Part shown: piece after piece, positions 5,596 to 43,297 of the stretch
Position numbering within the stretch: position 1 is the first letter of the stretch
Layout of the letters: each line of letters begins with the position of its first letter
Assembly (NCBI GenBank): GCA_017469265.1
Contig: JAFUGS010000043.1
Coordinates: forward strand, 1-52,078
Length of the DNA: 52,078 bases
Direction: 5' to 3'
Source of the DNA: Clostridia bacterium
GTDB taxonomy: Bacteria > Bacillota > Clostridia > Christensenellales > Aristaeellaceae
The notes under the pieces: generated by a model
What the model was told of the DNA's origin: nothing
What the model saw: the letters and a program-made list of their open reading frames with translations, nothing else
Databases searched by the model: none
Program-made: the position numbers and the translations under genes

Positions 5596-5604
5596 TCATC
5601 CATA

Positions 5605-5870
5605 AACCATTGAGGGAGAGAAGTAACCGCCTGGAAGGGGATTTTCAGGGAGCCGCGAACAGTGTGACCGCGGCAGTCCGCGAGACGGTGAATGGACTCC
5701 TGAGGGCATCGGCGAAAGGAACCGAGTAGTCGATGACGGGATCCGCACCCGTTATCATGGCGGCGCGTATGTCGGTACGCGGAGAACGAGCCTGCCCATG
5801 GGCGGGGAAGTTGAGTGGCACAGCGAAGAATTCGCCTCAACCGGAGATGATCCGATTGGGGCTTTTTGTT
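5605..5870 (+). promoter_or_regulatory. T-box leader, tryptophan-specific
   Basis: The 5' part has the layout of T-box Stem I, and the segment GAATGGACTCCTGAGGGC carries the specifier codon TGG (Trp) at 5693-5695. The T-box bulge is GAGTGGCACAGCG (5813-5825). Its TGGC can pair with the GCCA end of a tRNA whose discriminator base is G, as expected for bacterial tRNA-Trp. The antiterminator pairs GTTGAG (5810-5815) with CTCAAC, plus GCGAA with TTCGC. Uncharged tRNA-Trp should therefore let transcription continue into trpXYZ. The specifier codon, the discriminator match and the downstream genes all agree. Confidence 0.88.
5834..5870 (+). terminator. T-box-controlled intrinsic terminator
   Basis: GCCTCAACCGGA (5834-5845) pairs with TCCGATTGGGGC (5851-5862) over a GATGA loop with a single mismatch, followed by TTTTT. 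Its left arm overlaps the antiterminator, giving the usual on/off choice. Confidence 0.88.
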
Positions 5871-5946: not shown

Positions 5947-6975
5947 ATGAAAAAGCTCGCTACCATGCTCATCGCCCTGATCCTGACCCTGACCGTCCTC
6001 TGCGGTGCCGGCCTGGCGGAGGAAAAAAGCTTCAAAATCGGCATCTGCAATTTTGTGGATGACGCGAGCCTGAACCAGATTATCGCCAACATCCGGACCC
6101 GGCTGGGCGAAATCGAGACTGAAAAGGGCGTGACCTTCGAAATCATGGAGGACAACTGCAACCTGGACGGCAGCGTGATGCAGCAGATTATCGAGAACTT
6201 TATGGCCAGCGATGTGGACCTGATGGTGGGCGTGGCTACGCCGGTGGCCATGACCATGCAGGGCATGACGGAGGAGAACGGGATCCCGGTCGTGTTCGCG
6301 GCGGTTTCCGATCCGCTTGGCGCGGGACTGGTGGAAAGCATGGAAAAGCCCGGCGGAAACATTACCGGCACCTCGGACTATCTGGACACGAACGCGGTGC
6401 TGAACCTGATCTTCGCGGCGAATCCCGAAGCGAACAAGATCGCGCTGCTTTATAACCCGGCGGAGGACGCCTCCACCGCGCCCATCGCGGCGGCCAGGGA
6501 GATTCTGGAAGCAAAGGGCGTCAGCTACAAGGAGTACTCCGGCAGCAACATCAGCGAGGTGGTGCTGGCGGCGGACGCGATTGTGGCGGATGAAATGGAC
6601 GCGGTGTTCACGCCCACGGACAACACCATCATGGCGGCGGAGCTGTCCATTTATGAAAAGCTGGCGGAGGCGGGGATTCCGCACTACACGGGCGCGGATT
6701 CCTTCGCCCTGAACGGCGCCTTCCTGGGATACGGGGTGGATTACGCGAACCTGGGACGGGAAACCGCGGACATGATCGCGGAGATTCTGGTAAACGGCGC
6801 CAATATCGCGGAAACCCCGGTCCGGACCTTCGATAACGGCACGGCAACCGTCAACACGGATACCGCCGCTCTGCTCGGATTCGACTTTGAGAAACTGACG
6901 GAGGCATTCGGCCCCTACTGCACCAGCGTACAGGCAATCACCACGGCGGAATCCTTTGATGACCTGACGGATTAA
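5947..6975 (+). CDS. trpX: TrpX: substrate-binding protein of the tryptophan ABC importer
   Basis: The protein has 342 residues and an N-terminal export signal, with a likely cleavage after AGLA near residue 24; a Cys at 20 lies in a poor lipobox context. The mature part matches the ABC_sub_bind (former DUF534) family: FKIGICNFVDDASLNQI, then DLMVGVATPVAMTMQ and PVVFAAVSDPLGAGLV. In Firmicutes this family with its permease and ATPase, under Trp T-boxes, is called TrpXYZ and predicted to import tryptophan. The ribosome site is AAAGGAG. Substrate choice rests mainly on the T-box upstream. Confidence 0.87.
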   Translation: MKKLATMLIALILTLTVLCGAGLAEEKSFKIGICNFVDDASLNQIIANIRTRLGEIETEKGVTFEIMEDNCNLDGSVMQQIIENFMASDVDLMVGVATPVAMTMQGMTEENGIPVVFAAVSDPLGAGLVESMEKPGGNITGTSDYLDTNAVLNLIFAANPEANKIALLYNPAEDASTAPIAAAREILEAKGVSYKEYSGSNISEVVLAADAIVADEMDAVFTPTDNTIMAAELSIYEKLAEAGIPHYTGADSFALNGAFLGYGVDYANLGRETADMIAEILVNGANIAETPVRTFDNGTATVNTDTAALLGFDFEKLTEAFGPYCTSVQAITTAESFDDLTD

Positions 6976-41362: not shown

Positions 41363-41608
41363 ATGGAAAAAACCATGACGCAGGATCAGCGGCTGAGCTT
41401 CCTGGTGGAAGCCTTCAAGGCTGATTCAGACGGGTATCAGGCGCTGACCACCCCGGAAGATACCGCGGGCCGGCAGCGCGTACTCCGATCCCTGATGAAC
41501 ATCCGCATGCCCGGCGTGATGCCGGAGGACGTGCTGCGGGTTCAGGATGACTATCTGCGGACTCGCATTCCAAATACAGTGGAAAAACATATAAACCTAT
41601 TTACATAG
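41363..41608 (+). pseudogene. N-terminal fragment of a macrodomain protein-ADP-ribose hydrolase
   Basis: The frame of 81 residues starts behind AAGGAGAGAAGCC. Residues 5-70 (LSFLVEAFKADSDGYQ, then LRSLMNIRMPGVMPEDVLRV) closely resemble the helical N-terminal region that precedes the macrodomain in Clostridia protein-ADP-ribose hydrolases, from memory. The macrodomain itself is missing: after residue 72 the DNA turns AT-rich and the frame stops. The break point adjoins the metY promoter. It is probably a truncated gene; a free-standing domain is possible. Confidence 0.65.
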
Positions 41609-41628
41609 TAGTTTAGTGGTGATAATAT
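41600..41628 (+). promoter_or_regulatory. Promoter of the metY leader
   Basis: TTTACA (41600-41605), a 17-base spacer and TAATAT (41623-41628). The predicted start is near 41635, giving a leader of about 370 bases before metY. Confidence 0.68.
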
Positions 41629-41712
41629 ACGTTTCATTCAGAGAAAGGAGGCGTGAAGGATGGTCGGTACGGGCAAGCGGGGATGGTTTTGGATGTGTGG
41701 CCGAATGCTTAA

Positions 41713-41831
41713 CTCCCGGACAGACGTTTTGGCGGGGGCGTACGGTCATACCCTGATACGCCTTCAGCGCGTGGGCTGATTCCGCCACAGGATTGTTTGT
41801 CCGGGAGCTTGCAGGAAGCCCCGGTTTTTTT
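41713..41831 (+). promoter_or_regulatory. Structured leader RNA of metY, unassigned riboswitch or attenuator
   Basis: CTCCCGGACA (41713-41722) pairs perfectly with TGTCCGGGAG (41798-41807). Inside are TGGCGG (41730-41735) with CCGCCA (41782-41787), GGCGTA (41737-41742) with TACGCC (41757-41762), and TCAGC (41764-41768) with GCTGA (41775-41779), a three-way junction. Seven bases of the closing helix are also the left arm of the terminator, so the two folds exclude each other. I saw no SAM-I, SAM-II, cobalamin or T-box core. Bases 41635-41712 belong to the same leader and may add an alternative pairing. Confidence 0.65.
41801..41831 (+). terminator. Terminator in the metY leader
   Basis: CCGGG-A-GCTT (41801-41810) pairs with AAGC-CCCGG (41816-41824), with one bulged A, followed by seven T. 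It lies about 175 bases before metY, so it is an attenuator rather than the end of a gene. Confidence 0.85.
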
Positions 41832-42007
41832 GTGGGCAGATTTCTTCCGGGCAGATATGCAGCTCAGCCTGAAATCGCTCAGTGAATGGTTATGCTGGAC
41901 GGAGGCGGGAACCTGATTCACCGCTGCCGCAGACGGCGCGGACAATGGTTTCCTGCAGTCGGGGGAATGGACATCAAGGAAAAGGAAAAGAAAAGGAGAG
42001 ATGAATC

Positions 42008-43297
42008 ATGCGTAATTATCGTTTTGAAACACTGCAGCTTCACGTAGGACAGGAACAGGCGGATCCGGCGACGGACGCGCGGGCCGTACCGATTTATCAG
42101 ACCACCTCCTATGTGTTCCGAAACAGCCAGCATGCCGCAGACCGATTCGGACTGGCGGACGCGGGGAACATTTATGGCCGGCTGACCAATTCGACGCAGG
42201 AGGTACTGGAGAAGCGCCTGGCCGCACTGGAGGGCGGCAGCGCGGCCCTGGCGGTCGCTTCCGGCGCGGCGGCGATTACCTATACGATTGAGGCCCTGGC
42301 TGCAAACGGCGGGCATATCGTCGCGCAGAAGACGATCTACGGCGGCAGCTTCAACCTGCTGGGGCATACGCTGCCGCAGTACGGCGTGCGGACGACCTTT
42401 GTGGACGCGCACAACCTGCGGGAGATGGAAGACGCGATTCAGGAGAACACGCGGGCGATCTACCTGGAAACCCTGGGCAATCCGAACAGCGATATCCCCG
42501 ATATCGACGCGGTTGCGGAGATCGCGCACCGGCACGGACTGCCGCTGGTGATCGACAATACCTTTGGGACGCCGTATCTGATCCGGCCGATCGCGCATGG
42601 AGCGGACATCGTGGTTCATTCCGCGACCAAGTTTATTGGCGGTCATGGGACAACGCTGGGCGGCGTAATCGTGGAATCTGGAAAATTCGACTGGAAAGCC
42701 AGCGGCAAGTATCCGAACATCGCGGAGCCGAACCCGAGCTATCATGGCGTGTCGTTCTTTGACGCAGCCGGCCCGGCCGCCTTTGTGACCTATATCCGCG
42801 CGATTCTGCTGCGGGATACCGGTGCTTCGATTTCTCCCTTCAACGCGTTCCTGCTGCTGCAGGGCGTGGAAACGCTGTCGCTGCGGCTGGAGCGGCACGC
42901 GGAAAACACGAAGAAGGTGGTGGAATACCTGAGCGGTCATCCGCTGGTTGAGAAGGTGAACCATCCGTCGCTGCCGGACCATCCGGATCACGCGCTGTAC
43001 GAGCGGTATTTCCCGAACGGAGGCGCGTCGATTTTCACTTTTGAAATCCGGGGCGGGCAGAAGGAAGCCTGGACATTTATCGACCATCTGACGATTTTCT
43101 CACTGCTGGCCAATGTCGCGGATGTGAAGAGCCTGGTGATTCATCCCGCTTCGACCACCCATTCGCAGCTGTCGGAGGAGGAACTGCTGGATCAGGGAAT
43201 CCGTCCGAATACGATTCGACTGTCCATCGGGACGGAGCATATTGACGATATCATCGCGGATCTGGAGCAGGGGTTCGACGCGGTCAGGAAGCTGTGA
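42008..43297 (+). CDS. metY: MetY: O-acetylhomoserine aminocarboxypropyltransferase
   Basis: The protein has 429 residues and belongs to the Cys/Met-metabolism PLP enzymes. The PLP-binding Lys lies in SATKFIGGHGTTLGG (about 205-219). The N-terminus (FETLQLHVGQEQADPATDAR) and YGRLTNSTQEVLEKRLAALE are typical of O-acetylhomoserine sulfhydrylase. It uses sulfide or methanethiol to make homocysteine or methionine. The start follows AAAAGGAGAGATGAATC. Its attenuator leader suggests control by a methionine-pathway compound. Confidence 0.94.
   Translation: MRNYRFETLQLHVGQEQADPATDARAVPIYQTTSYVFRNSQHAADRFGLADAGNIYGRLTNSTQEVLEKRLAALEGGSAALAVASGAAAITYTIEALAANGGHIVAQKTIYGGSFNLLGHTLPQYGVRTTFVDAHNLREMEDAIQENTRAIYLETLGNPNSDIPDIDAVAEIAHRHGLPLVIDNTFGTPYLIRPIAHGADIVVHSATKFIGGHGTTLGGVIVESGKFDWKASGKYPNIAEPNPSYHGVSFFDAAGPAAFVTYIRAILLRDTGASISPFNAFLLLQGVETLSLRLERHAENTKKVVEYLSGHPLVEKVNHPSLPDHPDHALYERYFPNGGASIFTFEIRGGQKEAWTFIDHLTIFSLLANVADVKSLVIHPASTTHSQLSEEELLDQGIRPNTIRLSIGTEHIDDIIADLEQGFDAVRKL

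Follow-up and report, generated by a model that had tools for sequence, protein, structure and literature searches.

How is a sulfur amino acid gene controlled when none of the expected RNA elements can be recognized in its leader? The question is raised by metY, an O-acetylhomoserine sulfhydrylase gene (42008..43297; TIGR01326, 619.3 bits against a cut-off of 495.1) of a Clostridia bacterium of the Aristaeellaceae, which lies together with its leader on the plus strand of contig JAFUGS010000043.1 (assembly GCA_017469265.1), the whole stretch of 52,078 nucleotides (nt) being referred to here as the window. In Firmicutes, cysteine and methionine genes are usually said to be governed by S-adenosylmethionine (SAM) riboswitches, T-boxes and CymR-type repressors, with SAM-I and T-box elements as the usual RNA controls. 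An original prediction, made from the sequence of the window by itself, saw in the metY leader a branched RNA whose closing helix competes with a terminator. The comparisons described here indicate that the leader is probably a ribosome-mediated transcription attenuator that would report the supply of cysteine (and probably of methionine) by way of a leader peptide. This reading is carried by a conserved open reading frame (ORF), two mutually exclusive structures of which the antiterminator covaries, the placement of particular codons, and the set of genes found downstream.

Rfam at its gathering threshold gave no match in the leader, and a permissive scan (E up to 10) brought up mir-138, GlsR14 and chrB-b only, all rejected as chance-level. 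Across 20 loci, including the class 2 leaders described below, nothing was matched at the element, the sole match being a tmRNA in L115. SAM-I (RF00162) and T-box (RF00230) elements control the same classes of genes, yet neither these nor other SAM riboswitch covariance models match the metY leader, in keeping with the predicted absence of a SAM or T-box core. The T-box model does detect a T-box at 5601-5842 in the same window (95.6 bits), upstream of an ORF (5947-6975) that resembles, by eye, an ABC transporter substrate-binding protein. SAM-I riboswitches are present elsewhere in 38 of 45 congeneric genomes, and both kinds of control therefore coexist.

The leader begins to make sense when read as a translated sequence, an aspect that the original prediction overlooked. 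A Shine-Dalgarno (SD) sequence, AAGGAGG, can be read at 41645..41651, and an SD-like sequence likewise precedes the start codon in relatives. It is followed by an ORF of 39 amino acids (MVGTGKRGWFWMCGRMLNSRTDVLAGAYGHTLIRLQRVG, 41660..41779), recognized by the conservation of its frame and matched by no NCBIfam or Pfam family. The ORF passes through the 5′ arm of the closing helix P1a (CUCCCGGACA, 41713..41722) and terminates at a TGA codon (41777-41779) within the loop of the branched structure. The prediction had suggested the upstream 80 bases as a counterpart to the fold, and that stretch does include the first part of the leader ORF. As claimed, P1a is a perfect helix of 10 base pairs (bp), formed with a 3′ arm at 41798..41807 (UGUCCGGGAG), and it encloses a segment that folds as a three-way junction. 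Inside it lies helix P1b, predicted by folding and also found in the family, which in this genome pairs UGGCGG (41730..41735) with CCGCCA (41782..41787) and is offset in the family alignment. The reuse of the 3′ strand was also borne out, with the P1a 3′ arm shared between the antiterminator and the left arm of an intrinsic terminator (41801..41831), CCGGG(A)GCUU-GCAGG-AAGCCCCGG, a 9-bp hairpin with one bulge that runs into seven T residues (41825-41831). Folding energy by itself is unremarkable (z of -1.00 for the whole stretch and -1.74 for 41640-41834), and a single sequence is therefore insufficient as proof of structure.

Comparison with relatives supplies what the single sequence cannot. 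Orthologous metY genes (type A; E below 1e-240) are found in 20 of the 45 congeneric genomes, and every one of the 20 is preceded by the leader ORF, the core CGAATG-NNNNN-CTCCCGG and the 3′ arm. Similarity to the leader at the DNA level gave a match in just 3 of 41 relatives' genomes, its own included. A larger set, class 1, was assembled by pattern and comprises 71 distinct elements from 74 candidates, each required to have a T-run, a start codon and a stop codon; it includes many close relatives, and the pattern itself fixes ATG and CTCCCG. Over the interval -24 to +45 about the core, 69 of these 71 elements keep the leader frame open, as against 19 and 35 for the other two frames, and a stop codon in this frame falls between the arms in all 71 (35 and 42 for the others).

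The structures were evaluated on 39 aligned sequences, taken from 51 with 70-110 nt between the arms out of 57 then collected. In the antiterminator (P1a, P1b and a further inner helix, P2) 91.3% of cells are paired, and 11 of the 21 pairs are changed on both sides, against a shuffled mean of 4.5 and a value reached in none of 500 shuffles; slid versions of the structure pair in only 27-54% of cells. P1a is nearly fixed in this alignment, with 6 of its 10 pairs never varying, while P1b and P2 rest on the analyst's choice of columns, which favours the structure, and RNAalifold predicted P1a and nothing else. Because the search pattern favoured fixed arms, a second alignment of 17 rows was picked by the analyst to include divergent ones. 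Here P1a is 95.9% paired and 5 of its 10 pairs are changed on both sides, with 16 double-changed cells overall against 4.5 in shuffles (0 of 500 as high). L106, L107 and L109 preserve P1a through compensating changes, and in L109 both arms of P1a have changed in concert with the right arm of the terminator. The covariation that the prediction had asked of related leaders is thus present in the antiterminator. The terminator averages -15.8 kcal/mol against -7.1 when shuffled, at most two of 50 shuffles being as good in 64 of the 71 elements, and P1 is computed to be the more stable structure in 71 of 71. The proposed competition between antiterminator and terminator, with the branched fold as the ON state, is supported by these results. 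Pairing of CGAAUG with another fixed stretch was sought by eye only and not found. Pairing of the SD sequence (GAGGCGC) with a P2 strand (GCGCCUC) was visible by eye in some members and not in L065 or L010, and this candidate was dropped.

The placement of codons fits a ribosome as the sensor. In the window, the candidate sensing codons ATG-TGT (Met-Cys, 41693..41698) begin 20 and 17 nt upstream of the 5′ arm and are followed by the near-invariant pair CGA-ATG (Arg-Met, 41702..41707). A Cys codon occurs within three codons before CGA in 69 of the 71 class 1 elements, and L103 and L108 have Cys directly after the core ATG. Counted back from the arm, the first base of a Cys codon stands at a distance of 14 nt in 57 cases, 17 nt in 45 and 20 nt in 5, and that of a Met codon at 20 nt in 47, 17 nt in 9 and 14 nt in 3. 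The Arg before the core ATG is encoded by CGA in 70 of the 71 and by AGA in one (L169), in a set in which 10 elements came from a search that also fixed CGA and 17 came from the covariance model or from regions fetched afterwards. Elsewhere this codon is less frequent: it encodes 24 of 51 Arg residues before other Met or Cys codons of the leaders, one of the Arg residues of the P1 arm (CGG in the other 70), 6 of 156 Arg residues at other leader positions, 37 of 1516 in 108 distinct metY ORFs (86 of 2148 with duplicates) and 5 of 90 in four ORFs of the window. The arm itself appears to be kept as RNA and not for the sake of the peptide, since the leader of L191 ends in CGA-ATG-CGA-TAA just before the arm and nevertheless retains both UCCCGGACA and UGUCCGGGA.

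The genes that follow the element are consistent with a role in sulfur amino acid supply. A covariance model built on the family has 45 matches in 30 of the 45 congeneric genomes, and these precede metY (20), a polar amino acid-type ABC permease (13), a MetQ/NlpA lipoprotein (3), MetN (3), a family 3 solute-binding protein (2), a PepT-like M20 peptidase (3) and a rhodanese-domain protein (1), as assigned by reading N-termini, with hidden Markov model (HMM) checks on representatives. The permease scores higher on ectoine permease models than on the cystine one, all below cut-off, and the solute-binding protein matches several amino acid models, also below cut-off; the substrates of both are therefore judged from the company they keep, and the M20 peptidase would be linked to sulfur by a similar inference. 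In 245 genomes of the class the model has 13 matches in 9 genomes, preceding metY (3), MetQ (4), a cystathionine-gamma-lyase-like gene (4), a permease (1) and a fragment of a pyridoxal phosphate (PLP) enzyme (1), and judging by reading together with some HMM checks, all 13 stand before sulfur amino acid genes. The PLP-enzyme fragment, in L126, is C-terminal (1562-1876; PF00291, CysK-like by eye) and is followed by a glutamate-cysteine ligase family 2 gene (1950-2831). The exact core and arm pattern gave 11 matches in 9 of 391 class genomes, window included, all 11 with a leader ORF, and the reversed pattern gave 3 among the matches listed.

A wider comparison took the best 80 of 547 metY relatives, with loci from named genomes. 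Within 400 nt upstream, CGAATG is found at 51 of these 80 loci and its reverse complement at 3, which places it third among the 4096 hexamers by number of loci, behind two Shine-Dalgarno words. It lies inside an ORF at 50 of the 80 loci, 45 of them with an SD-like sequence, and is followed by a CTCCCG arm at 26. The sources include assemblies labelled Lachnospiraceae, Ruminococcus and Oscillospiraceae, as well as the isolates Lachnospiraceae bacterium YSD2013 and Atopobacter sp. AH10. Within the genus, metY has in addition a second paralogue, type B (SDIKNSANWSF or similar), with a different leader peptide that contains S-R-[N/D/G]-R-M. Of 12 type B genes, nine could be read as having this peptide, CGAATG being present each time, and no terminator was seen by eye in type B leaders. 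Stretches resembling AATTCAGAATTCAGAAT, short and repeated, lie upstream of type B metY in L016, L022, L025, L027 and L030 and may represent a small mobile repeat.

From these features we infer translation, stalling, the signal and the direction of the response in a mechanism that could operate as follows. A ribosome extends forward to about 15-16 nt beyond the first base of the codon in its P site. Should Cys-tRNA or Met-tRNA fall short, the ribosome would halt at the Met/Cys codons, which begin 14-20 nt upstream of the 5′ arm, and its front edge would just reach the arm, leaving the latter free to pair with the 3′ arm. P1, once formed, would exclude the terminator, and metY would be made. 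With a good supply, the ribosome would proceed over CGA-AUG and the arm, opening P1 and the inner helices, and the liberated 3′ arm would form the terminator, ending transcription about 176 nt before metY. In the trp attenuator a stop codon holds the ribosome in the fed state, and an OFF state of that type would be unavailable here because the stop lies in the loop and not beside the arm. A pause at CGA-AUG is proposed to replace the stop codon by keeping the ribosome on the arm; a ribosome of the footprint given above whose P site held CGA would cover roughly the first five arm bases.

Several points weigh against this attenuator model. A ribosome that has finished the ORF would leave the arm free, and with the stop in the loop and P1 more stable than the terminator, the OFF state needs a well-timed ribosome on the arm and an untranslated RNA would be expected to be ON. 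Against CGA acting as a simply slow codon speaks wild-type Bacillus subtilis, which reads four CGA codons in lacZ without loss (PMC10454642). Of the 80 metY genes in the wider comparison, 30 show no CGAATG ORF, and the covariance model finds no copy in 15 of the 45 congeneric genomes. The divergent L198 and L199 retain about 6-7 bp of P1a (L197, outside the alignment, looks similar), and covariation of the terminator on the alignment is close to shuffled, its left arm being nearly fixed. Finally, conserved N-F-R-x-G-R-M peptides in the leaders of some metY relatives suggest a nascent-chain component.

The last point leads to the rival that survives best, although it is unlikely for the class to which the window belongs: a nascent-chain arrest, in which the peptide, with Arg-Met at the peptidyl transferase centre, would stall the ribosome at high methionine, SAM or cysteine, and in which a ribosome halted at CGA-AUG would tip the balance towards the terminator by occupying some 5-8 nt of the 5′ arm. 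Its appeal lies in 14 metY leaders, class 2, that encode R-x-N-F-R-x-G-R-M (two have K for the first R and one has D for G) and may be arrest peptides. The N, R and G residues before CGA-AUG are kept in 14, 14 and 13 of the 14, respectively, by varying codons (two, five and four), such that the peptide itself seems to be under selection there, while the TTC and CGA-ATG codons are invariant. Moreover, CGA-AUG is common to all three leader types (70 of 71 in class 1, 14 of 14 in class 2 and 9 of 9 in type B). A control of this kind has reportedly been described for Arabidopsis CGS1/MTO1, where an enzyme of the same PLP family is subject to translation-based feedback by a SAM-dependent arrest peptide, although that system is said to be eukaryotic, to lie inside the coding region and to act through mRNA decay. 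However, the signature of an arrest peptide, a peptide kept while its codons are free, is absent from class 1, where nothing is conserved upstream of the Met/Cys codons and no residue exceeds 27% from position -5 upwards in the 71 elements; sensing by codons therefore fits better than a nascent-chain signal. CGA is, moreover, fixed as a codon, which a peptide signal would not need. Class 2 may also work differently, as no terminator was seen by eye apart from three hybrids that carry the class 1 arm (L091, L103 and L113). The remaining members are L049, L063, L077, L084, L085, L086, L102, L116, L119, L121 and L122. The class 2 pattern N-F-R-F-G-R-M was matched in 0 of 398 genomes of the phylum, with 2 for the reversed control among the matches listed.

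It is also conceivable, if rather improbable, that the near-invariant CGA codon is itself a sensor of sulfur status, through tRNA modification and not through aminoacylation. The thiol groups of such modifications derive from cysteine and their methyl groups from SAM. The draft genome of the window yielded 33 tRNA matches with one Arg tRNA (CCT) in 30 loci scanned, and the argument therefore makes use of G023, a single-contig congeneric genome that is 97% complete. The Arg tRNAs found there have the anticodons ACG, CCG, CCT and TCT (51 of the 52 tRNA matches being within the stretches scanned, which left out 2156910-2157101), so that CGA should fall to tRNA-Arg(ACG), expected to be ICG, through I-A wobble. 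The anticodon loop of this tRNA, CTACGAA, has C32, A34 and A37. In Escherichia coli, 2-thiocytidine at position 32 abolishes the wobble of this tRNA onto CGA (PMC5372741), and in Vibrio CGA is decoded less well when RlmN, the enzyme that methylates A37, is lost (PMC12588516). In cysteine-rich cells the tRNA would accordingly be thiolated, leaving ribosomes stuck at CGA on top of the arm so that the terminator could form, while sulfur-poor cells would show read-through. A TtcA-like protein is encoded in 37 of the 45 congeneric genomes, including 13 of the 13 good ones, with no score above the curated cut-off, and the genome of the window has a rhodanese domain fused to a TtcA-like PP-loop protein (L201 1033-2211; G000:C92). 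If true, sensing by CGA would explain the persistence of CGA-AUG in leaders lacking upstream Cys codons, and it would be, to our knowledge, the first attenuator to measure tRNA thiolation.

The branched RNA as a metabolite sensor, a possibility implied by the original prediction, is not supported, in that the conserved part that would do the sensing has the look of a translated leader peptide, read in a frame that runs across the 5′ arm. A riboswitch whose three-way junction binds a ligand, with the ORF incidental, is accordingly very unlikely. Such a riboswitch could account for the conservation of P1b and P2 and for the near-fixed nucleotides of P1a, but not readily for a conserved frame, SD sequence, start and stop, nor for a distance between the arms that varies from 49 to 142 nt across members; no Rfam class matches, and the hybrids join the same arms to class 2 peptides. 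That the fold is a chance structure in a GC-rich leader, as weak single-sequence z-scores might suggest, is scarcely credible in view of the conservation and covariation over many genera.

The attenuator proposed here thus belongs among leader-peptide systems, of which the trp- and his-type transcription attenuators, with a ribosome at the stop codon masking the antiterminator arm, are the classical kind. It shares with them a short ORF with a ribosome binding site upstream of an operon, codons for pathway amino acids just upstream of the antiterminator arm, and an antiterminator and intrinsic terminator that exclude each other through a common arm, the position of the ribosome presumably deciding between them. 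In contrast to the classical kind, it concerns sulfur amino acids, has few sensing codons, a near-invariant CGA-AUG and a nearly fixed arm sequence, and stands before transporters, synthases and a peptidase alike. As its stop codon lies in the antiterminator loop and not beside the arm (only L191, outside the set of 71, has a stop at the arm), it is best called a variant of the leader-peptide attenuator. Cysteine leader peptides are known from Actinobacteria, with further work on them reportedly by Canestrari in 2020. These resemble the metY element in that a leader ORF containing Cys codons precedes cys genes, but their Cys codons come in runs close to the stop and a conserved terminator hairpin is lacking (Seliverstov 2005, PMC1262725), whereas the metY element places one to three such codons upstream of the arm and has both a terminator and an antiterminator. 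A recently described leader-peptide attenuator, that of ilvB1 in Mycobacterium tuberculosis, follows the classical scheme, a ribosome at the stop codon masking the arm (PMC13236596). Leader-peptide attenuation has also been reported in Firmicutes, with histidine leader peptides upstream of hisS/hisZ in Bacilli; these concern another amino acid and contain stretches of His codons, and metY has 0 occurrences in the text of that paper (Naville and Gautheret 2010, PMC2965389).

While leader-peptide attenuation is already known, a sulfur leader family with CGA-AUG is apparently undescribed, as the original prediction had supposed: no description was found in open PMC full texts, subscription papers being outside the scope of that search. 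The family would add a translation-based switch to the known controls of these genes, built on one compact architecture and present in several groups of rumen and gut bacteria, where it precedes genes for synthesis, import and a peptidase. The family also offers a test of how a leader ribosome might hold the OFF state in the absence of a well-placed stop codon, and because of its fixed CGA-AUG, synonymous mutations could probe directly whether tRNA modification is linked to sulfur supply.

Upstream of the leader ORF, a sigma-70-like promoter can be read at 41600..41628 (TTTACA, 17 nt, TAATAT; 9 of 12 matches, with TG before the second hexamer). One such site was found against 0.5 expected by shuffling, and the call therefore rests mainly on likeness to relatives. 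In many of these (L012, L015 and L043-L122) a palindrome-like sequence, CCTATTGACATAGTAGG, lies over the -35 box, and a loose form of it occurs upstream of 35 of the 80 metY genes in the wider comparison. It is a candidate for a second, transcriptional layer of control, and a gene for an Rrf2-family regulator lies beside metY in L012 and L015. Just before the metY promoter an 81-codon N-terminal fragment of a macrodomain ADP-ribose hydrolase (41363-41608; PRK04143, 34.3 bits, profile positions 2-74 of 265) breaks off. In G023, L277 (C1:2125178-2125412) holds three tandem tRNA genes with ARAGORN anticodons tgta (four bases), cta (amber) and tat (Ile), perhaps a phage or suppressor cluster. Finally, about four copies of a GC-rich, REP-like palindrome similar to TCCCCCGCGNAGCGGGGGA lie between the terminator and metY in L009.

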